A stretch of DNA of 14,417 nt, taken from contig JAICHN010000082.1 of NCBI GenBank assembly GCA_025924845.1, positions 1 to 14,417 on the forward strand. Direction: 5' to 3'. Below the pieces are notes generated by a model that saw only the letters and a program-made list of their open reading frames with translations, ran no database searches and had not been told where the DNA came from. Source of the stretch: Chloroflexota bacterium (GTDB taxonomy: Bacteria > Chloroflexota > UBA5177 > JANWHV01). Numbering within the stretch: position 1 is the first letter of the stretch; every line of letters starts with the position of its first letter. Positions 2,424 to 12,496 of the stretch are shown here, piece by piece. The translations under genes and the position numbers were made by a program.

Positions 2424-2612
2424 ATGCAAGGGCAATGGGAGACACTGGTCAACGGCAATAGCGCCTGGGAGCGGGAAGCGCGTCGCCTCGCGACCGTGGC
2501 AGGCATCGCCTATGTGGTACTCAATGCTGAACGCTTGATCTCCTACGACGTACGCGACTTGCAGGCGCTCAACCTGAGGCTGCGTCGGAAGCATCGCCGG
2601 CGGTCGATATAG
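2424..2612 (+). CDS. Small hypothetical protein divergent from lysR
   Basis: I do not recognise this 62-residue product. It starts at ATG 2424 with a near-ideal AAGGAGATC six bases upstream, which argues for the internal start over an earlier ATG at 2391. The sequence opens MQGQWETLVNGNSAWEREAR, has a short hydrophobic stretch (TVAGIAYVVLN, about 25-35), and ends in a very basic tail (RLRRKHRRRSI). It could be a small nucleic-acid or membrane-surface-binding protein, but no fold can be assigned. It is divergent from lysR, shares its palindromic intergenic region, and overlaps the last 44 bases of menE in convergent orientation. Codon third positions are G/C-rich like the neighbours. It could still be a chance frame antisense to the menE end; the ribosome binding site is the main support. 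Confidence 0.5.
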   Translation: MQGQWETLVNGNSAWEREARRLATVAGIAYVVLNAERLISYDVRDLQALNLRLRRKHRRRSI

Positions 2613-4161
2613 CCGGCCCTTCCGCCTCGGCGCGTAGCTGCCGGCGGAGCACCTTGCCGGCCGCATTCCGGGGCAGGGCCGCCACGATACGAATTCGGGT
2701 CGGCGTCTTGTAACCGGCCAGGCGCTCACGGCAAAAGTCTCGGAGCTGCACGGCATCGATGGCCGCGCCTTTGCGAGAGACAACCGCCGCGGCCACGCAC
2801 TGGCCCCACCGCGCGTCGGTGATGCCGTAAACCGCTGCCTCGGTCAGGTCGGGGTGGGTCAGCAATACAGCCTCGACCTCAGCCGGAGAGATGTTTTCGC
2901 CCCCGCTGATAATCAGATCAGCACGGCGATCCAGCACATAGAGGTAGCCTTCGTCGTCCAGTCGTCCGATGTCACCCGTGTGCAGCCATCCGTCGCCGGG
3001 CGCGGCGGGCAACGGTCGCGAGAAGTCACCATCCTCGGGAAGGTAGCCGGAGGCAACGCTCGGGCCGCGCACCCAGATCTCGCCTTCGACCCCTGCCCCG
3101 ACCTGAACTCGGTCGGATCGGGCATCGACTGGCGCGATCTGAATTTCATTCGTCAACAAAGGTCGGCCCGCCGAGCCTAACTTGCGCAGGGCATCGGTCG
3201 GTGAAAGCGCCACAACCTGGGAGGCAGTCTCCGTCATACCATAGCTTTGCACCACGGGAAGCCGGCGTGCCGCGCACTCTTCCAGGATGCCGAGCGGCGC
3301 CGGCCCGCCCCCCAGCAGGACACAGCGCAGGGTGGGGGGGGGCGGGCTGCCCGCCCAATGGTCGAGCAAGCGCCGCAGCATGACCGTCACCAGCGAAACA
3401 ATGGTCACGCCGTACTCGGTCATGGCGCGACTTGCCGAAGTGGGGTCGAAGCTGGGGCCGCCCCGATTGACCGACGGGAAAATCAGCGGAATGCCATAGA
3501 TAACGGCGCGGAACAGCATGGCCAGTCCACCCACGTGGAACAGGGGGAGACAGACGAGCCAGCTATCGTCTTCGCGCAAGCCGAGGTTAAGCGCGGAAGC
3601 GGTCGCACTCCACCAATGGTTCCCATAGTTGAGCAGAACTCCCCTGGATTGTCCAGTAGTGCCGGAGGTGAACATGACGCACTGGGTTTCCCGCAAGTCG
3701 AGCCGCGGCGATTCGCCAGGTGCGACAGCCCGTTCGGGTGACCGGAGCGCATCCGTGATCGCAAGGAGTGTCGGCGCCGCGGCCAGGAGCTTAATCAACC
3801 GTGCTTGCGTCTCGGTTTGCTCGTCATGAACCAGGATTCGGGCACCCGACAAGGAGATCTGCCGGCCGAGTTCGGGTGGAGCGTGGCGAAGGTTGAGCGG
3901 GACCAAAACGGCGCCCAGGCGAGTCAGCCCATGGACCAACGCGACGTACGGCGCGCCATTGGTGAGCAGGGCCGCTACGCGATCGCCGCGAGCCACACCG
4001 CTATGGCGGAGCCGGCAGGCTAGCACATCGGCGCACCGATCCAGTTCGGCGTAGGTCCACCGGACGCCTCCTTCCGCCTCGATCACGGCGGGAGAGTCAG
4101 GACGGTCGGCGGCACGCCTGGCCAGCCACTCCGGCACGTACTGCCAATCAGATACCGACAC
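2569..4161 (-). CDS. menE: o-Succinylbenzoate-CoA ligase
   Basis: A 530-residue ANL-superfamily acyl-CoA synthetase that activates OSB with ATP and CoA to OSB-CoA in menaquinone synthesis. Motifs in order: the P-loop FTSGTTGQSRGV (164-175), the adenine-binding YGMTETAS (307-314), the ATP-ribose-binding GWLHTGD (391-397), the hinge region DRRADLIISGGENISPAEVE (411-430), and the catalytic C-terminal lysine in AAGKVLRR (K503). The family P-loop is normally followed by Pro-Lys; here it reads Ser-Arg. The start is GTG 4161 with GGCGAGG close upstream, eight bases after the menA stop. Last gene of the six-gene men operon, which supports MenE rather than a general fatty-acid ligase. At 530 residues it is longer than typical MenE (about 450-490), partly from a tail after residue 510. 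Confidence 0.92.
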   Translation of the reverse strand: MSVSDWQYVPEWLARRAADRPDSPAVIEAEGGVRWTYAELDRCADVLACRLRHSGVARGDRVAALLTNGAPYVALVHGLTRLGAVLVPLNLRHAPPELGRQISLSGARILVHDEQTETQARLIKLLAAAPTLLAITDALRSPERAVAPGESPRLDLRETQCVMFTSGTTGQSRGVLLNYGNHWWSATASALNLGLREDDSWLVCLPLFHVGGLAMLFRAVIYGIPLIFPSVNRGGPSFDPTSASRAMTEYGVTIVSLVTVMLRRLLDHWAGSPPPPTLRCVLLGGGPAPLGILEECAARRLPVVQSYGMTETASQVVALSPTDALRKLGSAGRPLLTNEIQIAPVDARSDRVQVGAGVEGEIWVRGPSVASGYLPEDGDFSRPLPAAPGDGWLHTGDIGRLDDEGYLYVLDRRADLIISGGENISPAEVEAVLLTHPDLTEAAVYGITDARWGQCVAAAVVSRKGAAIDAVQLRDFCRERLAGYKTPTRIRIVAALPRNAAGKVLRRQLRAEAEGPAISTAGDASDAASG

Positions 4162-4169
4162 GGCCTCGC

Positions 4170-5081
4170 CTAGCGCAGCAGGCTCAGCGCGAACAGCGCG
4201 CCGAATCGCAGGTGCAGTTCCGCTGTACCCTTCAGGGCCTTGTTAAGGGCACGGTCCTGATTGGCAGCGAGATAGAGCGAGAGGCGCACGGCGCGGGGGA
4301 GGGTGAGCAGGGGAAGCCAGAATGTATAGTCCCAACTGGCCCCGGTCTGCCATAAAGTAAACGGAATGGTGTAGGAAATCAGTTGGAACAGCATATACTG
4401 TTGGCGAGTCGCCTCGCGGCCGATCCGCACGGCAAGGGTGCGCTTCCCAGCCGCGCGGTCAGTGTCAATATCGCGCAGATTATTCACTACCAGGATGTTG
4501 GCGCAGAGCAAACCAACCGGCACGGAGGCGAGCAGCACATGTAAGGTGACCGTTCCCGTTTGCAAGTAAAACGTGCCTGCTACGGCGATCAAGCCGAAGA
4601 AGACGAAGACGAATAGGTCACCGAGTCCGTGATAACCAAGGGGGAATGGTCCGCCCGTATAGCCGATCCCACAGAGAATGGACAAGATGCCGATCGCCAG
4701 AATGGGTGCCCCGCCCACCGCAACCAGGTATGCGCCCAGCAGCAAGGCAAGGGCGAACGTGTAACCTGTGGCTAGCAGCACCTGGCGCGGCGTGAATATA
4801 CCGCTCTGTGTCACCCTGGTGGGACCCAGCCGCTCGGCCGTATCGGCGCCCTTGCGGAAGTCGTAGTAGTCGTTGGCGAAGTTCGTTCCGATCTGAATGA
4901 GCAGGGAACAAGCAAGGGTTGCCAAGAACACAATCAGGTGAAATTGGCGGGCCGAAATAGCCAGGGCGCTGCCCACCAGCACCGGCACCACCGCGGCGGG
5001 CAGCGTAGCGGGGCGGGCCGCCAAATACCATCCGCGAAGCCGGTCAATCGGCTCGGATGCGGTCCCTTCCGACTCGCTCAT
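4170..5081 (-). CDS. menA: 1,4-Dihydroxy-2-naphthoate polyprenyltransferase
   Basis: A UbiA-superfamily integral membrane prenyltransferase that attaches a polyprenyl chain to DHNA, giving demethylmenaquinone. The first Asp-rich prenyl-diphosphate site is NFANDYYDFRKGADT (about residues 67-81) and the second is NNLRDIDTDRAAGKRTLAVR, both highly characteristic of MenA. Multiple hydrophobic segments run throughout; the N-terminal RGWYLAARPATLPAAVVPVLVG is the typical MenA entry helix. The start is taken at ATG 5081, which overlaps the menB stop as TGATG and suggests translational coupling; a GTG one codon earlier (5084) is equally possible. The end lies eight bases before menE. Confidence 0.95.
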   Translation of the reverse strand: MSESEGTASEPIDRLRGWYLAARPATLPAAVVPVLVGSALAISARQFHLIVFLATLACSLLIQIGTNFANDYYDFRKGADTAERLGPTRVTQSGIFTPRQVLLATGYTFALALLLGAYLVAVGGAPILAIGILSILCGIGYTGGPFPLGYHGLGDLFVFVFFGLIAVAGTFYLQTGTVTLHVLLASVPVGLLCANILVVNNLRDIDTDRAAGKRTLAVRIGREATRQQYMLFQLISYTIPFTLWQTGASWDYTFWLPLLTLPRAVRLSLYLAANQDRALNKALKGTAELHLRFGALFALSLLR

Positions 5082-5929
5082 CACGGCAGTCGCGGGTATT
5101 TACTAAAGTCGGGCTTTCGCTTCTCCAGGTAGGCGTTTCGCCCTTCCTGGGCCTCCTCGCTCATATAGAACAGAAGCGTGGCGTCGCCCGCCAGTTCCTG
5201 GATCCCGGCCAGGCCATCGGTGTCTGCATTGAAGGACGCCTTGAGACAGCGCAGCGCAATGGGACTCTTTTCGAGAATCTCCCGTGCCCAGGTCACCGCC
5301 TCGATTTCCAGCTCCTCGAGCGGCACCACGGTATTGATCAGGCCCATGTCGAGTGCTTGCTGGGCATTATATTGACGGCACAGATACCAGATCTCGCGGG
5401 CCTTCTTATGGCCAACCAGGCGAGCCAGATAGCCCGCTCCGTACCCGGCGTCAAAGCTTCCCACCCTGGGCCCGGTTTGCCCAAACACGGCGTTGTCGGC
5501 GGCGATGGTCAGGTCACAGACCACGTGCAACACGTGGCCGCCCCCTATCGCGTAGCCCGCCACCACGGCGATGACCGGCTTGGGGAGCGCGCGAATCTGC
5601 TTTTGCAAATCAAGCACATTCAGGCGCGGCACGCCGTCGGTGCCGACGTAGCCCGCCTCGCCGCGCACCCGCTGATCGCCGCCCGAACAGAAAGCTTTGG
5701 TCCCCGCGCCGGTGAGCAGGACCACGCCGACGGCCGGATCCTCACGGGCGATCGCGAACGCCTGGATCAACTCGTTCGTGGTCAGCGGAGTGAAGGCATT
5801 CCGCACCTCGGGCCGATTGATGGTGATGCGGGCGATGCCCTCGCCCACCTCATATAGAATGTCGCTGTATGACCCTTGTCGTTCCCAGGCTACGTCGGAG
5901 GGTTTGATCGTACGTTCGCCGGTTTCCAT
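5081..5929 (-). CDS. menB: 1,4-Dihydroxy-2-naphthoyl-CoA synthase
   Basis: A 282-residue crotonase-fold enzyme that cyclises OSB-CoA to DHNA-CoA. Visible features: the oxyanion-hole region [10 protein letters not shown] (81-90), [16 protein letters not shown] (125-140), the signature [22 protein letters not shown] (149-170), and the C-terminal [11 protein letters not shown] typical of MenB. By motif alignment with the E. coli enzyme, the active-site Tyr94, Ser158, Asp160 and Tyr255 are all kept. Gly153 (in QTGP) marks the bicarbonate-dependent type I class rather than type II enzymes, which carry Asp there. The start ATG 5929 follows AAGGAA, four bases after the menH stop. Confidence 0.97.
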
Positions 5930-5933
5930 TAGA

Positions 5934-6848
5934 CTATTCCTTTTGCTCGATTAAGGGAGGCTCCGGGGGTCCGGCCGCCAGTTCGCGAAAGAACATCAAC
6001 ACTTCCGCGTCAAATCGCTTGGGTTGCTCGAGGTGGACGTTGTGCCCCGCGTCATCCACAACCGCCACGCGCGCCCGCGGCAACTGCTCGGCCATGGTGA
6101 CCGCGTGTTCGCGGTAACGTTCGTCCAGCGCGCCCACGATGAGCAAGGTCGGCATGGTCAACTCGGCCAGCCGCTCGTGCAGGGGCGGAGTGGTGCCCAC
6201 GCCGAGTCCGCGCAGACTGTTCGCGATGCCGCGAGGCGTATTATGGAGACGCTGGTCCCGCTGACGGTGGCGTACAGGCAAAGGCAGCTTGCGTTGGCTG
6301 GCGAAGAGAGGTAGTGCCTCCCAGCGGCGCGTGAACGCGGCCACGCCCTTCCGTTCGGTGTACTCGGCCAACTCCTCATCACCGCGGCGCCGCTTGGCGC
6401 GGTCGTCGGGATCGAGAATGCCCGGTGACGCGCTCTCCAGAATAAGCGCGCCTACCTGGTCCGGCGCGGCCAGCGCGAGGTGGAGGGCCACTCTGCCGCC
6501 CATCGAATAGCCAAGTAAGCCATAGCGCTCCCGGCCTCCCTCCGGCAAGGGTGAGAGGAGTTGATCGCAGAGCGCTTGCAGATCCGCCACCGTATGCTCC
6601 ATCGTGTAGCGGGCCGGATCGGCAGGGGCGTCACTCTGCCCGTGACCTAGCAGATCGATGCTGATCACACGGAAATGAGCGCCGAACCCAGCCCGGTGCG
6701 GAGCCCAGTTTTCGGAGTCGCCCGCGAACCCGTGGAGTAAGAAAAGTGGCGGCCCCAGGCCGCTGACCGTCACGGAGTAGCGGACCCCATTGATCGGGAT
6801 CAGGCGTTCGGTCACGGCCCTGTCCGCGGCTGCCGGCGGATTATCCAT
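5934..6848 (-). CDS. menH: 2-Succinyl-6-hydroxy-2,4-cyclohexadiene-1-carboxylate synthase
   Basis: A 304-residue alpha/beta hydrolase placed between menD and menB, so it most likely removes pyruvate from SEPHCHC to give SHCHC. The oxyanion motif FLLHGFAGD (37-44), nucleophile elbow GYSMGGR (Ser115), acid in GALDERY (Asp242) and base in DAGHNVH (His269) form a complete catalytic triad. A cap domain (about 145-225) is very rich in Arg. It is longer than E. coli MenH (about 250 residues), through an N-terminal extension and a Pro-rich C-terminus. The operon position decides the assignment; by fold alone it could be another hydrolase. Confidence 0.9.
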
Positions 6849-6878: not shown

Positions 6879-8699
6879 TCATTCCATGCTATCCAGGATA
6901 CCGGCAACGGCGGCCCGGACAAGTGGCCCGCAGCGCCGATGCAGTGCCACGTTGGCGGCGCGATCGGTGCGCACCTCCACGATGTGTAGCCCGCCTCGAG
7001 TAATTCCACCCTGAACCGCTTCGCGGAACTCGCCCCACGCCGCGCATCGGGTGTACGCGCCGCCGTACAGCGCGGCGGCGTGGGCGAAGTCGAGACCATG
7101 CGGGGTGCCGAATAACTCCTCAAATGACCACTCGTCGGTCGCCGCTCCGGCGGCTGCCTGGGGCAGGAAGGAGAAAATGCCGCCCCCATCGTTGTGGACT
7201 ACTACGACAACCAGGGAAATGCGGTGACGGTTCGCCGCCAGAAGGCCGTTCATGTCGTGATAAAAGGAGATGTCGCCCAGCACCAATACGGTAGGGTGGT
7301 CGCTCACGCCGGCCACGCCGAGCGCCGAGGATACCACGCCGTCGATGCCGTTGGCGCCTCGATTGGCCAGGAAACGCACCGGCGCCTGCCGTTTGGCAAA
7401 GAAGGTGTCGAGGTCGCGCACCGGCATACTGTTGCCCACGAAGAGGTTGGCGCCGGAGGGCAAAATAGCAGTAAGCTCGGTGAAGATCCTCCCTTCGAAC
7501 GGCTCGTCCATGGCGGCGACGGCGTCGTTGATCGCGGTACGGGCTGCTTCAGCCGCGCTAAGCCATGTTGAGGCCCATGTACTGACGCTCGGCCGCTCGA
7601 CTGAGGGATTGCGCACGGCGCTGAGCACTTCTAACAGAGTGGTACACAAGAGGGTGGGGTCGGCGCGCACGCACTGGGCGGCGAGCAGCGTTGGGTCTTG
7701 CGGCTCGCCTCGCGCCACCAGAATTTGCCGAATCTCCGGACGGCGCTGTAGGTAGTCGAGGAGCGGCTTGGCGGTCGATAGGGCGCCAAAGCGCAAAACT
7801 ACATGCGGAGACTCGTGAGAAACAAAACGCTCATCGCGCAGTAGCATGTCGTAACTATCAATGACCAAGGCAGTGTCATGCGAACCGCAACGAAGGCCGG
7901 AAAGGGGGTCGGCCAGAATTGGATAGCCCAGGCGCCGAGCCAGGACGGTTAGCGGTTCGGCGAGGTCAGGTTCATCCAGCGGCCCGCAAATGATCAATCC
8001 GCGCGGCGCGGCGAGCAGTTCTGCCGCTAGTTCGTTCAAGAGCGCCGGATCGGGAACCAGGACGGGCCGGTTATAGGTCGTGAAGGGTAACCCATCTTCC
8101 CGTCCTTCGCGGCCCGGCACGGACAACGATGCAAGCTGCTCGTTCGGCGCGGGGGTGGGCACGAGCGGTTCCCGAAATGGAAAGTTCAGATGGACTGGGC
8201 CGGCAGGAACCTCCAGGGTGCGCGCCACGGCGCGGCAAGCAGTGACGCGCGCGTAACGGAGTACGTCGTCGCGCGGCGTTGGCACGGCCATTTCCACCGA
8301 CCACTTGACCTGGGCGCCGTAAAACCGGATCTGATCGATGGTTTGGGCGGCGCCGCAATCGCGGAGTTCGGGCGGCCGATCGGCGGTGAGCACCAGAAGC
8401 GGAACGCCGGCATGACGCGCCTCCACCACGGCCGGCATAAAGTTTGCCGCCGCCGTTCCTGAAGTACACACGACAATCGCCGGCATGCCCAGACATTTGG
8501 CGATGCCGAGGGCGAAGAAGGCGGCGGATCGCTCGTCAAGGTGGGTCCAGAGACGGAAACGGGAATCCTTGGCGAAACTGATTGCCAGGGGCGTGGAGCG
8601 GGAGCCGGGACACAGGCAGACATGATGCACGCCCGCGCGCGCGAACTCGTCGACCACGGCGCCGGTGAAGAGATATGCGGGGTCCAGGACGCTAAGCAT
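6879..8699 (-). CDS. menD: SEPHCHC synthase (2-oxoglutarate decarboxylase type)
   Basis: A 606-residue thiamine-diphosphate enzyme that adds the succinic semialdehyde carbanion from 2-oxoglutarate to isochorismate. Motifs: LCPGSRSTPLAI (29-40), HLDERSAAFF with the catalytic Glu56, VVCTSGTAAANFMPA (76-90), LTADRPPELRDCGAAQTIDQ (104-123), FVGNSMPVRDLDTF (420-433), ANRGANGIDG (445-454), and the ThDP/Mg site GDISFYHDMNGL (475-486). The frame is open for another 142 codons upstream, but MLSVLDPAYL at ATG 8699 is the true start: it matches where MenD proteins begin and overlaps the menF stop as TGATG. A 30-base gap separates its stop from menH. Confidence 0.97.
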   Translation of the reverse strand: MLSVLDPAYLFTGAVVDEFARAGVHHVCLCPGSRSTPLAISFAKDSRFRLWTHLDERSAAFFALGIAKCLGMPAIVVCTSGTAAANFMPAVVEARHAGVPLLVLTADRPPELRDCGAAQTIDQIRFYGAQVKWSVEMAVPTPRDDVLRYARVTACRAVARTLEVPAGPVHLNFPFREPLVPTPAPNEQLASLSVPGREGREDGLPFTTYNRPVLVPDPALLNELAAELLAAPRGLIICGPLDEPDLAEPLTVLARRLGYPILADPLSGLRCGSHDTALVIDSYDMLLRDERFVSHESPHVVLRFGALSTAKPLLDYLQRRPEIRQILVARGEPQDPTLLAAQCVRADPTLLCTTLLEVLSAVRNPSVERPSVSTWASTWLSAAEAARTAINDAVAAMDEPFEGRIFTELTAILPSGANLFVGNSMPVRDLDTFFAKRQAPVRFLANRGANGIDGVVSSALGVAGVSDHPTVLVLGDISFYHDMNGLLAANRHRISLVVVVVHNDGGGIFSFLPQAAAGAATDEWSFEELFGTPHGLDFAHAAALYGGAYTRCAAWGEFREAVQGGITRGGLHIVEVRTDRAANVALHRRCGPLVRAAVAGILDSME

Positions 8700-10186
8700 C
8701 AAACCGAGCCGGCCAGCGCGCCGAGCATCGCCTTGAGCTTGAGACACGACTCGCGATATTCGCTCGCCGGATCGGAGTCCCCTACGATGCCGCAACCGGC
8801 GAACAGATGCGCCTGTCGGCCGTCCAGCAGAGCGGATCGGATGGCCACCGCGAACTCTCCTTCGCCATGGCGATCCAGCCAGCCGACCGGACCGGCATAC
8901 CAACCGCGATCGAGCTGCTCGCGGCGCCGAATCAGGGCCAGCGCATCGGTCCGCGGATAGCCGCCCACGGCGGGCGTGGGATGCAACTGAGTCACAAGGT
9001 CGAGGATGCAGGGGCGGGTACCATCGGGACGAACCGCGAGCGTGCCGGCGATCGGTGTATAGAGGTGCTGCACATTGGAGAGGCGGAGCAGGCGGGGGTG
9101 CGAGGCAATGTCCAAACTCTCGCATAGGGGCGCCAGGCTCTCGGCCAGCATCTCGGCGACCACCGCGTGCTCGGTACGATCCTTTGGAGAGGCAAGGAGA
9201 CGAGCCCCCAATGCCTCATCAGCGGTGGGATCGGCGCCTCGACCTATGGAGCCCGCCAGGCAAGAGGTGGCTAATTCGCCGCCGCGCAGGCGCACCAGGC
9301 GCTCGGGCGAGGCTCCTAGAAACACGCTGCCTGGCCGGCCCGATTCCCCGTTCGGTCGAGACACCGCGAACAGGAACGCATCGGGGAAGGTGTCGCGAAG
9401 GCGGCTCAGCGCCGTTCCTGGATTAAACGCGCGATCCGGCAGGGCGATCGTCACCTGTCGGGCCAACACCACCTTGGTCATGTTGCCGTGGCGAACCTCG
9501 GACGCCGCTTCACCGACCAGCCTCTTCCATTCCGCCTCGGGCATGGTGTCCTGAAGCGTAAACGGTTTGCCTGCGTGCGCGTCGTCCGGGCCGGCGGTGT
9601 TCGCGACGGCAAGCGCCTGGTCGCGCAGGTGTAGGGCGGTAGCCGCCAGCAGGTCCGGATCATCCTGCGGACGCACCACGATTGACGTTGTCAGCCAGTG
9701 TTCGCCGGCCACATTTGCCAGAATAAGTGTAGGCAGCACCATGGCGGAGTCGGGAAAGCGGGCCCAAAGGGCGGTGTGGCTGGCCTCGGGATCGAAGCGG
9801 AACCCACCCAGCACAAGCGGTCCGAGTCCCCAGCGATCGGCGGGCGCCTCAATTACAGCGCCCGCGATCATGGCGCGCCATACCGCTGCCGCCTCCGCGA
9901 AACCGTGGCCGGAGGAGGACGGCAACGTGTAGGCGACGCCCAGTCCGGCGATGCTCAAGTAGTGACCGGTTTCCCGATCCCGATGTTCCCAAAAGACGCG
10001 ATCAGGAACCCGGTCCATTGCCGAAAATAGGGCAAGAGGGTCGCACGGATCGACACGTTCGCCGACACTTACCAACACTGTCTCGCCGCCTCTCAGCGCA
10101 CGGCGGTGCCCCTCGCGAAGGGCAGAAGGGAGCGAGTGTGCGGTGGGCCGAGGAGCCGTGGGTCGGAGCAGATCGAGGGTCGTCAC
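8699..10186 (-). CDS. menF: Isochorismate synthase
   Basis: A 495-residue chorismate-binding enzyme that converts chorismate to isochorismate, the entry step of the pathway. The C-terminal catalytic domain carries the general base Lys238 (GNMTKVVLARQ), FLGASPERLVRL (289-300; Glu295 is the likely general acid), LAGSIGRG (310-317), SPKDRTEH (333-340), TQLHPTPAVGGYP (399-411) and the Mg site GCGIVGDSDPASEYRESCLK (464-483). The lysine base marks isochorismate/salicylate synthases rather than anthranilate synthase, and being followed by menD makes it MenF. The start is GTG 10186, with TAGGAA a few bases upstream. It begins only 12 bases from a 42-bp palindrome, so the promoter must lie in or beyond that palindrome. 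Confidence 0.95.
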   Translation of the reverse strand: MTTLDLLRPTAPRPTAHSLPSALREGHRRALRGGETVLVSVGERVDPCDPLALFSAMDRVPDRVFWEHRDRETGHYLSIAGLGVAYTLPSSSGHGFAEAAAVWRAMIAGAVIEAPADRWGLGPLVLGGFRFDPEASHTALWARFPDSAMVLPTLILANVAGEHWLTTSIVVRPQDDPDLLAATALHLRDQALAVANTAGPDDAHAGKPFTLQDTMPEAEWKRLVGEAASEVRHGNMTKVVLARQVTIALPDRAFNPGTALSRLRDTFPDAFLFAVSRPNGESGRPGSVFLGASPERLVRLRGGELATSCLAGSIGRGADPTADEALGARLLASPKDRTEHAVVAEMLAESLAPLCESLDIASHPRLLRLSNVQHLYTPIAGTLAVRPDGTRPCILDLVTQLHPTPAVGGYPRTDALALIRRREQLDRGWYAGPVGWLDRHGEGEFAVAIRSALLDGRQAHLFAGCGIVGDSDPASEYRESCLKLKAMLGALAGSV

Positions 10187-10198
10187 GTATTCCTACCA

Positions 10199-10240
10199 AC
10201 TACTGGTAACCGACCGACGCGTCGGTCGGTTACCAGTAGT
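10199..10240. promoter_or_regulatory. Perfect 42-bp palindrome between menF and menG, probable TetR operator
   Basis: Each 21-base arm is the exact reverse complement of the other with no central spacer; the left arm runs ACTACTGGTAACCGACCGAC plus G and the centre is ACGCGT. The inner ACCGACCG/CGGTCGGT repeat is typical of TetR-family operators. The palindrome ends 12 bases upstream of the menF GTG and 43 bases upstream of the menG ATG, so one occupied site could repress both directions. Its length would suit two dimers, as known for QacR, whose operator also has a GACCGA core. In RNA from either strand it would form a 21-bp hairpin. No convincing -35/-10 pair can be read beside it. The palindrome is certain; its ligand, the TetR protein encoded after menG, is inferred. 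Confidence 0.85.
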
Positions 10241-10283: not shown

Positions 10284-11045
10284 ATGGCCCAGGCAGCAAT
10301 GCCGGACGGCGAGTACGGCGCCCAACTGACCGGTCAGGCGCGGGCGGAGTATGTGCGATCGCTCTTCGCCCGCATCGTGCCACGCTACGACCTATTCAAC
10401 ACGCTCTCTACGTTCGGCCAGGACCGCCGCTGGCGACGTATTCTGGTGCGCCTAGCGGCCGTGCCCGCCTCGGGCCGAGTGCTGGACGTGGCAACCGGTA
10501 CGGGCGCGGTGGCCTTTGCCCTGGCCAGGCAGACACCCACCGCGCACGTAGAAGCATTGGACTTCTGCGCTCCCATGATCGACCGCGCCCAAGCCCTGGC
10601 CGAGACGCGAACCGGCATCGCGGCGGGAGTAACCGCGGTGCCTACGTTTGTCGTGGGCGACATCCTCGCCCTACCCTACGACGACAATTCGTTCGACGCG
10701 GTGACCATCTCGTTCGGCATTCGCAATGTGGCCGATATTCCACGTGCCCTGAACGAGATCCGTCGGGTCTTGAAGCCGGGCGGGCGCTTCGTCTGCCTCG
10801 AATTGACCCATCCCCGATCGCCGCTGATTCGTATTCCCTTCCATTTCTACTTCTATCGTCTGTCGCCGCTGCTGGGCGCACTGTTGTCCGGTGACCGAGA
10901 CGCCTATACCTATCTACCGCATTCGTTGACCCAGTTTCCCGACGCGGCACATTTGGCCCAGTTGATGCGGGAGGCGGGGTTTACCCTGGTGCGGCATCGC
11001 ACGCTCAACCTGGGGACCATCGCCATTCATCGAGGGCTGAAGTAG
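10284..11045 (+). CDS. menG: Demethylmenaquinone methyltransferase (UbiE/MenG)
   Basis: A 253-residue SAM-dependent C-methyltransferase for the last step of menaquinone synthesis. The UbiE/COQ5 N-terminal signature is clear in YDLFNTLSTFGQDRRWR (35-51), SAM motif I is VLDVATGTG (66-74), the acidic loop is ALDFCAPMI (91-99), and FGIRNVAD (144-151) plus RVLKPGGRF (161-169) complete the family pattern. The start ATG 10284 is preceded by AAGGAG at good spacing; the frame is open further upstream but would run through the palindrome. It lies divergent from the other men genes and upstream of tetR. Bacteria with ubiquinone use the same enzyme for both quinones; no ubiquinone gene is seen here, so MenG is the better name. 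Confidence 0.95.
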   Translation: MAQAAMPDGEYGAQLTGQARAEYVRSLFARIVPRYDLFNTLSTFGQDRRWRRILVRLAAVPASGRVLDVATGTGAVAFALARQTPTAHVEALDFCAPMIDRAQALAETRTGIAAGVTAVPTFVVGDILALPYDDNSFDAVTISFGIRNVADIPRALNEIRRVLKPGGRFVCLELTHPRSPLIRIPFHFYFYRLSPLLGALLSGDRDAYTYLPHSLTQFPDAAHLAQLMREAGFTLVRHRTLNLGTIAIHRGLK

Positions 11046-11050
11046 CCGCC

Positions 11051-11695
11051 ATGGAGGAGCGGGCGGCCCGCGGCGGGCGTGACAAGGCCGCCACCCGCGA
11101 GCGGATCCTCCAGGCGGCGATCGATGTGTTCGGCGAGCGCGGCTACCAGGCGGCGAGCATGGACGAGATCGCGCGGCGGGCCGGCAGCTCGAAAGGAGGA
11201 GTGTACTTTCACTTCGCCAATAAGCAGGCCATCTTCGAGGCGCTGATCTCCGAGTTGGTCATGCTGTTGGAGGCTGATGTACGAGCGGCGATTGGCCAGG
11301 CGCATGGTGCGTTGGCGCGCGTGAACGCCGCGCTGTCGGTGGCGATCCAGACCTTCGCCGCCCATCCTGGGCTCACTCGTCTGCTCCTGGTTGAGGTCAA
11401 CGGTCTAGGACATCCCTTCGACCAAGAGATTCGGGCTGCCCGCGGCGTATTTCTGGGCGTGATTGAGTCATACCTGACCCACGCCGTGGAGGAAGGGGTC
11501 ATAGCACCGCTCGACACCCACATCGCGGCGTGCGTCTGGCTCGGAGCGATCAATGAAGTGGTGGTGCAATGGCTCTACGCCGAGAGCCCAAGCAAATCGG
11601 CTCTGGAAGCGGCGCTGCCGGCGCTCCGGTCGGCGCTGCTACGGAGTATCGGGGTACAAGAGGAAGCGCCAGGTCAACCCGCGGCGCGAAGGTAG
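11051..11695 (+). CDS. TetR/AcrR-family transcriptional regulator
   Basis: A 214-residue TetR-family repressor. The N-terminal helix-turn-helix is complete: TRERILQAAIDVFGERGYQA (15-34), SMDEIARRAGSSKGGVYFHF (36-55), then ANKQAIFEAL. Residues from about 70 form the helical ligand and dimerisation domain. It starts five bases after the menG stop, so it is probably co-transcribed with menG. There is no strong ribosome binding site (GAGGG is about 15 bases upstream), which suggests low or coupled translation. The nearby 42-bp palindrome is the natural operator, giving autoregulation together with control of menF-E and menG. The ligand is unknown; a quinone, a pathway intermediate or an acyl-CoA would be reasonable. 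The 3' end overlaps the convergent toxin gene by 22 bases. Confidence 0.92.
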   Translation: MEERAARGGRDKAATRERILQAAIDVFGERGYQAASMDEIARRAGSSKGGVYFHFANKQAIFEALISELVMLLEADVRAAIGQAHGALARVNAALSVAIQTFAAHPGLTRLLLVEVNGLGHPFDQEIRAARGVFLGVIESYLTHAVEEGVIAPLDTHIAACVWLGAINEVVVQWLYAESPSKSALEAALPALRSALLRSIGVQEEAPGQPAARR

Positions 11696-12051
11696 ACTAC
11701 CCGATCGGTCCAATCCTCCGCGCCGGCATCGCGCCACAAGGCGAGAAGTGCCTTGATGAGTACGCCTGTATTGCCCTCGGCTTTGGCCCGGTGATCAACG
11801 AAGATAACCCCAGCATGTGAAGTGTTCCCATGGGCCAAATCTTTCAGCAAGGGTGCGATAGTCCGGAGATCGCGCGTCACCAGCGTCCATCCTTGCTCGC
11901 GCGCATGGTTCAGGATCAGCCAATCCGGCGCCCCCAGATGCGCTCCTTCCATCCACGGCCGCATACAGATCACCTCTACGGCCGGATGGTGAGCGCGGAG
12001 CTGCCGCGCATCCTCCTCCGAGAAGTGCTCATCCAGCAGGAGACGTAACAT
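11674..12051 (-). CDS. DUF5615/PIN-like ribonuclease toxin
   Basis: A 125-residue protein of the Mut7-C/PIN-like DUF5615 type, the nuclease half of a VapC-like toxin-antitoxin pair. It begins MLRLLLDEHFSEEDARQLR, where Asp7-Glu8 is the first acidic site. DWLILNHAREQGWTLVTRD (43-61) carries the helix and the second conserved acidic residue Asp61, and GVIFVDHRA (81-89) gives a further acidic residue. The start at ATG 12051 is preferred over an in-frame TTG six bases earlier. It overlaps the upstream antitoxin gene by 23 bases, so translation is probably coupled. RNase activity is inferred from the family. Confidence 0.8.
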   Translation of the reverse strand: MLRLLLDEHFSEEDARQLRAHHPAVEVICMRPWMEGAHLGAPDWLILNHAREQGWTLVTRDLRTIAPLLKDLAHGNTSHAGVIFVDHRAKAEGNTGVLIKALLALWRDAGAEDWTDRVVYLRAAG

Positions 12052-12496
12052 CGTCAACTGCTTGCTTATTCACTTGATCCATGGAAAGTTCAATGACACG
12101 AGTTTGTGGCAGTAGTCGGCGGAGCGCGGCAGCATCATATGCAGCGTTGTCCTGCAAGGCGGCCTCAATCTCGTCGGTATAGGCTTCCGTATAGTTCAGC
12201 GCCGCTTGCACACGCGAGAGCGGCCATCCCAGGTATGCGGCAGTCCCGGCAAGATCGCCCCCTCGTTCGCGGGCAAGCATGGCCACCTCCCACACCGCCA
12301 GGCTCGACCCCTGCATGTATGCTTGCCGGCCAACTATGGAATCGCGGAACTCAATGAAGGCGAACTCGGACATGCGGAGTGCCTCTTCAATCAGCCGCGC
12401 CCCTGTCTCACCTTGAGAATAGCCAAGGCGACGCGCAAGGCGCTTGAGGCGTTCACTCTGTGTATCCTGCAGCCTGATGGTAATCACTTGTGACAT
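12029..12496 (-). CDS. Ribbon-helix-helix plus DUF433 antitoxin
   Basis: A 155-residue protein with two parts. Residues 1-45 (MSQVITIRLQDTQSERLKRL, then ARRLGYSQGETGARLIEEAL) look like a ribbon-helix-helix DNA-binding domain. Residues about 56-113 match DUF433: GRQAYMQGSSLAVWEVAMLA is followed by YLGWPLSRVQAALNYTEAYTDEI. DUF433 proteins are the usual partners of DUF5615/VapC45-like toxins, and the overlapping toxin gene downstream supports the antitoxin role. The N-terminus probably binds its own operator and the C-terminal part the toxin. ATG 12496 is preceded by GGGGG about ten bases upstream. The last 35 residues are acidic and probably flexible, a region that often wraps the toxin. Confidence 0.8.
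   Translation of the reverse strand: MSQVITIRLQDTQSERLKRLARRLGYSQGETGARLIEEALRMSEFAFIEFRDSIVGRQAYMQGSSLAVWEVAMLARERGGDLAGTAAYLGWPLSRVQAALNYTEAYTDEIEAALQDNAAYDAAALRRLLPQTRVIELSMDQVNKQAVDDVTSPAG

Follow-up and report, generated by a model that had tools for sequence, protein, structure and literature searches.

Why should a perfect palindrome of 42 bp lie between two divergent sets of menaquinone (vitamin K2) genes, close to a gene for a TetR-family regulator? The question is raised by the 14,417-bp stretch of Chloroflexota DNA analysed here, which we refer to as the window. With considerable confidence, we propose that the TetR encoded at 11051-11695 has its operator in this palindrome, and that this regulator is dedicated to menaquinone supply and reads a common signal. 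The palindrome very probably serves as the switch for a repressor found in many Chloroflexota ahead of whichever route supplies menaquinone: one of two unrelated biosynthetic pathways, or a predicted set of import and finishing genes.

A putative operator between divergent menaquinone genes

The minus strand of the window carries menF (isochorismate synthase; 8699-10186; TIGR00543, 332.9 bits against a cut-off of 224.75), menD (6879-8699, its start provisional; TIGR00173, 472.3 bits), menH (5934-6848; TIGR03695, 252.6 bits), menB (5081-5929; TIGR01929, 440.8 bits, cut-off 342.7), menA (4170-5084; TIGR00751, 225.8 bits) and menE (2569-4161; TIGR01923, 361 bits). On the plus strand lie menG (demethylmenaquinone methyltransferase family; 10284-11045; TIGR01934, 220.3 bits, cut-off 158.35) and, 5 bp downstream, tetR (11051-11695), which encodes the proposed regulator of 214 amino acids. 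Every one of the seven Men proteins scores above the curated cut-off in one or more NCBIfam models for its function, and by this measure the men gene calls of the preliminary description hold, as does its TetR gene. The start of menG was set at the ATG at 10284, which has AAGGAG ahead of it; a longer, GTG-started frame would cross the palindrome. Beyond menE, and likewise on the minus strand, positions 721-2302 hold a regulator of the LysR family and a frame for a GNAT acetyltransferase; small overlapping genes at 11674-12496, also on that strand, have the appearance of a toxin-antitoxin-type pair, one being DUF5615 (27.3 bits, cut-off 23.8) and a second frame giving a weak ribbon-helix-helix match under the cut-off.

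The gap between menF and menG measures 97 bp, and the proposed operator (10199-10240, strand not applicable; ACTACTGGTAACCGACCGACG/CGTCGGTCGGTTACCAGTAGT) lies inside it, between the divergent menF(DHBAE) and menG-tetR. The preliminary description had called it uninterrupted and free of mismatches, with an arm ending 12 bases from the menF start, and we confirm both points: there are two 21-bp arms, no spacer and no mismatch, and the arm ends 12 bases before the GTG at 10186. No other perfect palindrome of at least 14 bp is present in the window, and by simple arithmetic the chance of a 21-bp arm is about 4^-21 per position, or about 3e-9 over the whole window. The inner 22 bp consist of two exact, staggered 18-bp dyads, ACCGAC-N6-GTCGGT, one at 10209-10226 and the identical word, shifted by 4 bp, at 10213-10230; the window holds no further exact copy. 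Flanking these are the outer arms at 10199-10207 and 10232-10240. A promoter and terminator scan of the window found nothing.

Both sequence and predicted fold place the tetR product in the TetR family. Its helix-turn-helix scores 67.1 bits with TetR_N (PF00440, cut-off 24), PF17932 and PF21351 are also over their cut-offs, and the predicted structure (pLDDT 87) is all helices. A Foldseek search with this model returned 479 PDB chains at E <= 0.001, with many named TetR proteins among the best 50 of the 479. The family habit of keeping a palindromic operator near the regulator's own gene has its counterpart in the putative operator, a conserved dyad upstream of tetR. Two narrower assignments fall short of their NCBIfam cut-offs, with 67.7 bits against 200 for FadR of the Bacillus type (NF053878) and 76.2 against 150 for the ScbR-type autoregulator receptors (NF041196).

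Relatives of the TetR and their neighbourhoods

In a protein database, relatives of the window TetR are 64-93% identical among the best 120 of 533. In the genomes searched for close relatives (a phylum sample of 400, classes of 47, 158, 29 and 177 genomes, and 393 genomes of a fifth class) the best identity is 55%, and neither the 177-genome class nor the 393 genomes of the fifth class hold a relative at E <= 1e-56. Searched with a profile (A1) built from 39 close TetRs, species genomes gave at least 80 loci. Most of the Chloroflexota loci among these that have enough DNA show tetR directly preceding menF on the same strand, followed by menD, menH, menB, menA and menE. Four loci (L022, L027, L034, L036) have menG divergent from tetR across the same gap, and in two (L052, L055) menG is divergent while menB and menA come after tetR. 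An arrangement like that of the window, with tetR behind menG, was not seen in the loci read. Compared with its relatives, the window therefore keeps the operator between menG and menF, with tetR lying behind menG.

At E <= 1e-30, TetR relatives occur in 107 of 400 sampled Chloroflexota genomes, one in each. All 107 neighbourhoods were taken, and genes downstream of tetR on the same strand within 5.2 kb were labelled by tblastn, giving 55 men, 35 mqn and 17 other loci. Two loci were then moved by hand out of the mqn label, which reduced it to 33: L160, whose next gene is only a distant MqnE relative (92.7 bits against a cut-off of 434.55; no Pfam family), and L172, with a transporter and late menaquinone genes. 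After the recount, tetR is directly followed by Men genes in 55 of the 107 loci, by the non-homologous futalosine (Mqn) genes in 33 (a label checked on examples only) and by an ABC transporter with late menaquinone genes in five; one more locus of this last type comes from outside the 400-genome sample. All 55 men loci have MenF as the first men or mqn gene after tetR. In the mqn examples, MqnE passes its cut-off in L161, L125 and L231, and MqnC falls short of its own by half a bit in L231; VitK2_biosynth (MqnA/MqnD) is seen in L161, L166 and L170, and UbiA-UbiX-UbiD in L057, a locus outside the sample. Contig ends limit the reading of L206, L220 and L225.

Beside other or unreadable genes stand 13 of the 107 relatives. 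A single clade, in which the motif is weak or missing, unites eight of them (L168, L171, L177, L200, L214, L216, L217, L225; support 97); it belongs to the same TetR lineage. The next gene encodes an NMT1/THI5-type binding protein in the four annotated members, and MqnA is found elsewhere in the genome in all eight.

MenB at E <= 1e-95 marks 152 genomes, 55 with a TetR relative at E <= 1e-30 and 97 without, and the Men pathway therefore often runs without this regulator. None of the 33 mqn-type genomes is among the 152 with MenB, which argues that one regulator serves alternative routes.

Conservation of the operator core

If the palindrome belongs to the TetR, it should accompany tetR in these relatives. 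The dyad was scored as the best match to 12 fixed letters between 300 bp upstream and 20 bp inside tetR, leaving out two men rows with too little upstream DNA (L261, L262). Of the 53 men loci, 42 reach at least 11 matching letters upstream of tetR, and of the 33 mqn loci, 26 do, which leaves 11 and seven, respectively, with lower scores; with the original script labels, the mqn count is 28 of 35 and that of the others 3 of 17. The same threshold was reached in 1 of 105 stretches of equal length just downstream of tetR and in 4 of 2100 dinucleotide-model shuffles. Across 73 sites, preselected for 11-12 matches, dyad positions 1, 3, 4 and 5 (C, G, A, C) and 12-14 (G, T, C) are invariant, and the dyad precedes the first TetR residue by a median of 44 nt. 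At 33 of the 42 men sites, as against 1 of 28 mqn-labelled sites, a further dyad (at least 10 of 12) lies 4 bp away. Negative loci, the 18 among L061-L080 whose titles do not name Chloroflexota, score 7-9 except for L062 and L069 with 11 of 12.

Two observations from the wider set of loci are worth recording. In three Acetothermia/Bipolaricaulota loci (L031, L039, L045), a TetR is accompanied by a dyad (11-12 of 12) that overlaps the tetR start or lies just before it, and in L031 and L039 the genes after tetR include branched-chain-type ABC transport parts. At L205:3457-4272, a TetR relative has an exact dyad upstream, and the annotated gene that comes next there is of the chlorite dismutase/HemQ family.

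The longest perfect palindrome among the 73 scored relatives measures 34 bp (L176) and most are much shorter; the 42 bp of the window therefore mark the upper end of a graded range of lengths. None of the 73 scored sites shows the outer 9-bp arms, which are so far peculiar to the window. The conservation together with tetR that the preliminary description looked for is thus seen in a core of 18-22 bp; among the scored relatives, it finds no support for the full 42 bp as a unit. These comparisons support, in silico, the core as a conserved companion of the TetR and the men operon across Chloroflexota.

The same comparisons bear on a second layer of control that had been suggested, in which the palindrome acts as RNA, forming a hairpin near the menF start that governs translation or termination. 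The strand does fold strongly (-45.5 kcal/mol, z -6.4) and the arm end is only 12 nt from the start, but any perfect palindrome folds likewise. Half-site letters are conserved as a DNA-reading protein would demand, several being invariant among the sites preselected for 11-12 matches, whereas the outer arms are absent from the scored relatives and most of their sites are imperfect palindromes. Furthermore, the palindrome lies where a promoter is expected, and the transcript may therefore not contain it. We consider the hairpin unsupported and very improbable, and treat the palindrome as a DNA operator in what follows.

How specific, then, is the 18-bp word? It occurs exactly in 16 of 20 whole genomes, and in 15 of those 16 one copy is at the tetR locus. 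Seven of the eight exact sites away from this locus overlap open frames, and one (G013) is intergenic before dxs. In the class of G007, 38 genomes have the TetR and 120 lack it; exact copies are present in 30 of the former and 49 of the latter, and TetR-less genomes hold 0.68 copies each on average. The word being common in TetR-less genomes, our argument therefore rests on its position next to tetR and not on sequence alone.

A competing idea is that the palindrome is a repeat, mobile or generic, or a site for a different TetR, and stands here by chance; wide occurrence as an unrelated repeat is what the preliminary description had held to count against its own proposal. The word does occur elsewhere, including TetR-less genomes where it may stand beside a divergent MFS gene. 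The palindrome, however, is single in the window, on which ground a generic repeat was rejected, and the dyad tracks tetR in both men and mqn settings at its typical distance. Chance placement is hardly credible beside the reading of the palindrome as the operator of its neighbouring TetR.

Individual copies away from tetR have some interest of their own. In G013, the second exact dyad (L267:2991-3008) lies about 114 bp ahead of the dxs start, with a Crp-family gene on its other side, and a link to the isoprenoid tail of menaquinone is possible. The copy at L275:1501-1518, which neighbours an MFS transporter gene in a genome that lacks this TetR, is probably the site of another regulator; judged by open frames, L276 and L281 have a similar divergent layout.

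Pathway swapping and salvage-type loci

A tree of 108 TetR rows (the 107 relatives and the window) requires the men/mqn label to have changed four times or more. Two men-type loci, L173 and L174, fall inside an mqn clade (SH-aLRT 96) and carry that clade's operator variant, ACAGAC...GTCGGT. The window has a long branch (1.4) without a supported place; the tree comes from a quick search with a single support value and long branches, and we draw no finer statements from it. Most of the 108 rows contain the recognition-helix motif SKGxxYFHF.

A third type of neighbourhood, which we call salvage-type, is found in six genomes, with only part of the genes annotated. In L018, tetR is followed by a substrate-binding protein (NMT1_2), an ATPase, a permease, MenG and MenA, the last two over their model cut-offs. 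In L172, it is followed by a UbiD-type decarboxylase (over the cut-off of a menaquinone model), an MqnP-like prenyltransferase, a binding protein, an ATPase, a permease and MenG. L241 has a binding protein, a UbiA-type prenyltransferase, an ATPase and a permease after tetR, and in L233, L234 and L239 transporter genes follow tetR, with MenA (on the other strand) and MenG nearby. No MqnA, and no MenB over its family cut-off, was found in the six genomes, and it is unlikely that lost contigs alone (completeness figures are not given) would account for this in six of six. L018 has an exact dyad and L172 one with a single deviating letter; the score is 9, 9, 9 and 10 in L233, L234, L239 and L241, whose variant GACYGACYRGTCRGTC is shared by the men-type sisters L181, L213 and L258. 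The salvage transporter may carry a naphthoate. By model, the L018 binding protein (2574-3680) comes near the SsuA sulfonate family, with a score below the cut-off (94.7 against 163.5 bits).

Evenly poised, in our judgement, is the reading that the TetR lineage is a (demethyl)menaquinone sensor that was kept while the Men, futalosine or salvage machinery was swapped, its transporter neighbours being candidate ABC importers of naphthoate precursors. The salvage route would then combine a binding protein, ATPase and permease either with MenA and MenG (a 2-naphthoate branch) or with MqnP-like and UbiD-like enzymes and MenG (a 6-naphthoate branch). Six genomes with a transporter cassette under predicted TetR control, late menaquinone enzymes beside it and early ones undetected provide a genomic handle on quinone salvage. 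For L. plantarum, the pathways of quinone uptake and modification are described as 'yet to be identified' (PMC10746273).

Proposed mechanism and signal

We hypothesize that dimers of the TetR bind the 18-bp dyad ACCGAC-N6-GTCGGT. With two dyads overlapping at a 4-bp stagger, two dimers would probably sit side by side, as in QacR. The operator occupies the centre of the 97-bp divergent promoter region, and TetR bound there would therefore block transcription of menFDHBAE on one side and of menG-tetR, and hence of its own gene, on the other. The regulator appears dedicated to menaquinone supply: what follows it directly is the Men operon, the futalosine operon or a predicted cassette for uptake and finishing. 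The preliminary description had proposed TetR control of the Men pathway; a men regulon agrees with the conserved core dyad and the men loci, but this proposal was too narrow, as futalosine and salvage loci are also included.

What would such a regulator measure? Since it follows menaquinone supply and not one pathway, its signal is probably common to all routes, and most simply would be (demethyl)menaquinone. Chorismate stands at the head of both the Men and the futalosine route, and both finish with demethylmenaquinone/menaquinone. The salvage loci drop chorismate, and the product is the simplest common signal. We propose that the level of (demethyl)menaquinone is read by its acting as co-repressor in the hydrophobic pocket of the FadR-like fold, which is predicted to be able to hold a long hydrophobic chain. 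Feedback logic suggests this sign, although most TetRs are released from DNA by their ligand and the sign may be the opposite. With the same regulator and operator before futalosine and salvage genes, effectors confined to the Men route (DHNA, OSB-CoA) become less likely. A regulator that follows the product, not the enzymes, makes the question of what the cell measures tractable with one protein and a few ligands.

The same TetR and operator might instead respond to a metabolite from fatty-acid or isoprenoid metabolism, such as acyl-CoA or polyprenyl diphosphate, or to the general respiratory state, with menaquinone genes as the main target. Such a signal would suit the nearest folds, which are acyl-CoA-responsive FadRs, as well as the second exact intergenic site before dxs in G013 and the chlorite dismutase/HemQ-family gene of L205. 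However, 88 of the 107 neighbourhoods hold Men or Mqn biosynthesis genes and five more are of the salvage type, and the window TetR stays under the FadR cut-off. We therefore regard this alternative as a tentative and less likely one, and retain a dedicated menaquinone regulator as our working explanation.

Comparison with known systems

To our knowledge, an impression that draws on the open-access literature, transcriptional control of whole menaquinone pathways is little described. The preliminary description knew of no well-described TetR control of a complete men operon, and a search of the open-access literature by titles and abstracts, a scope that excludes most subscription papers and regulon databases, likewise found no prior account of a TetR regulator of menaquinone synthesis. 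In mycobacteria, DHNA exerts allosteric feedback on MenD. Both systems control menaquinone synthesis, but the mycobacterial one is tied to the Men pathway, whereas the control proposed here would be transcriptional and independent of the pathway.

QacR of Staphylococcus aureus, from a multidrug-efflux context, binds a long palindrome near its own gene as two dimers. The window has two staggered dyads, and it is this doubling that points to two-dimer binding here. Among the Foldseek matches listed, the best are FadR of Bacillus (5gpa, 3whb; TM 0.77-0.80 by query length, 22-24% identity). Bacillus FadR binds long-chain acyl-CoA, and its known operator is another sequence than the ACCGAC-N6-GTCGGT dyad; the window TetR misses the FadR family cut-off and its neighbours are menaquinone genes.

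The nearest known motif that we found is the operator of PfmR (TTHB023), a TetR-family protein of Thermus thermophilus HB8, given as TACCGACCGNTNGGTN (PMC7022988). PfmR has the TetR fold, and its structure (3vpr) is among the Foldseek matches listed for the window TetR, at 23-24% identity. Its sites map to fatty-acid genes, with no menaquinone link seen in that source (PMC7022988). The spacing of two letters that defines the PfmR site is found among our loci only as a pairing within doubled sites, the men and mqn relatives sharing 6 bp. In other words, both operators are built from the same half-sites, ACCGAC and GTCGGT, which stand 2 bp apart in PfmR (PMC7022988), whereas in the window they stand 6 bp apart, twice and staggered.
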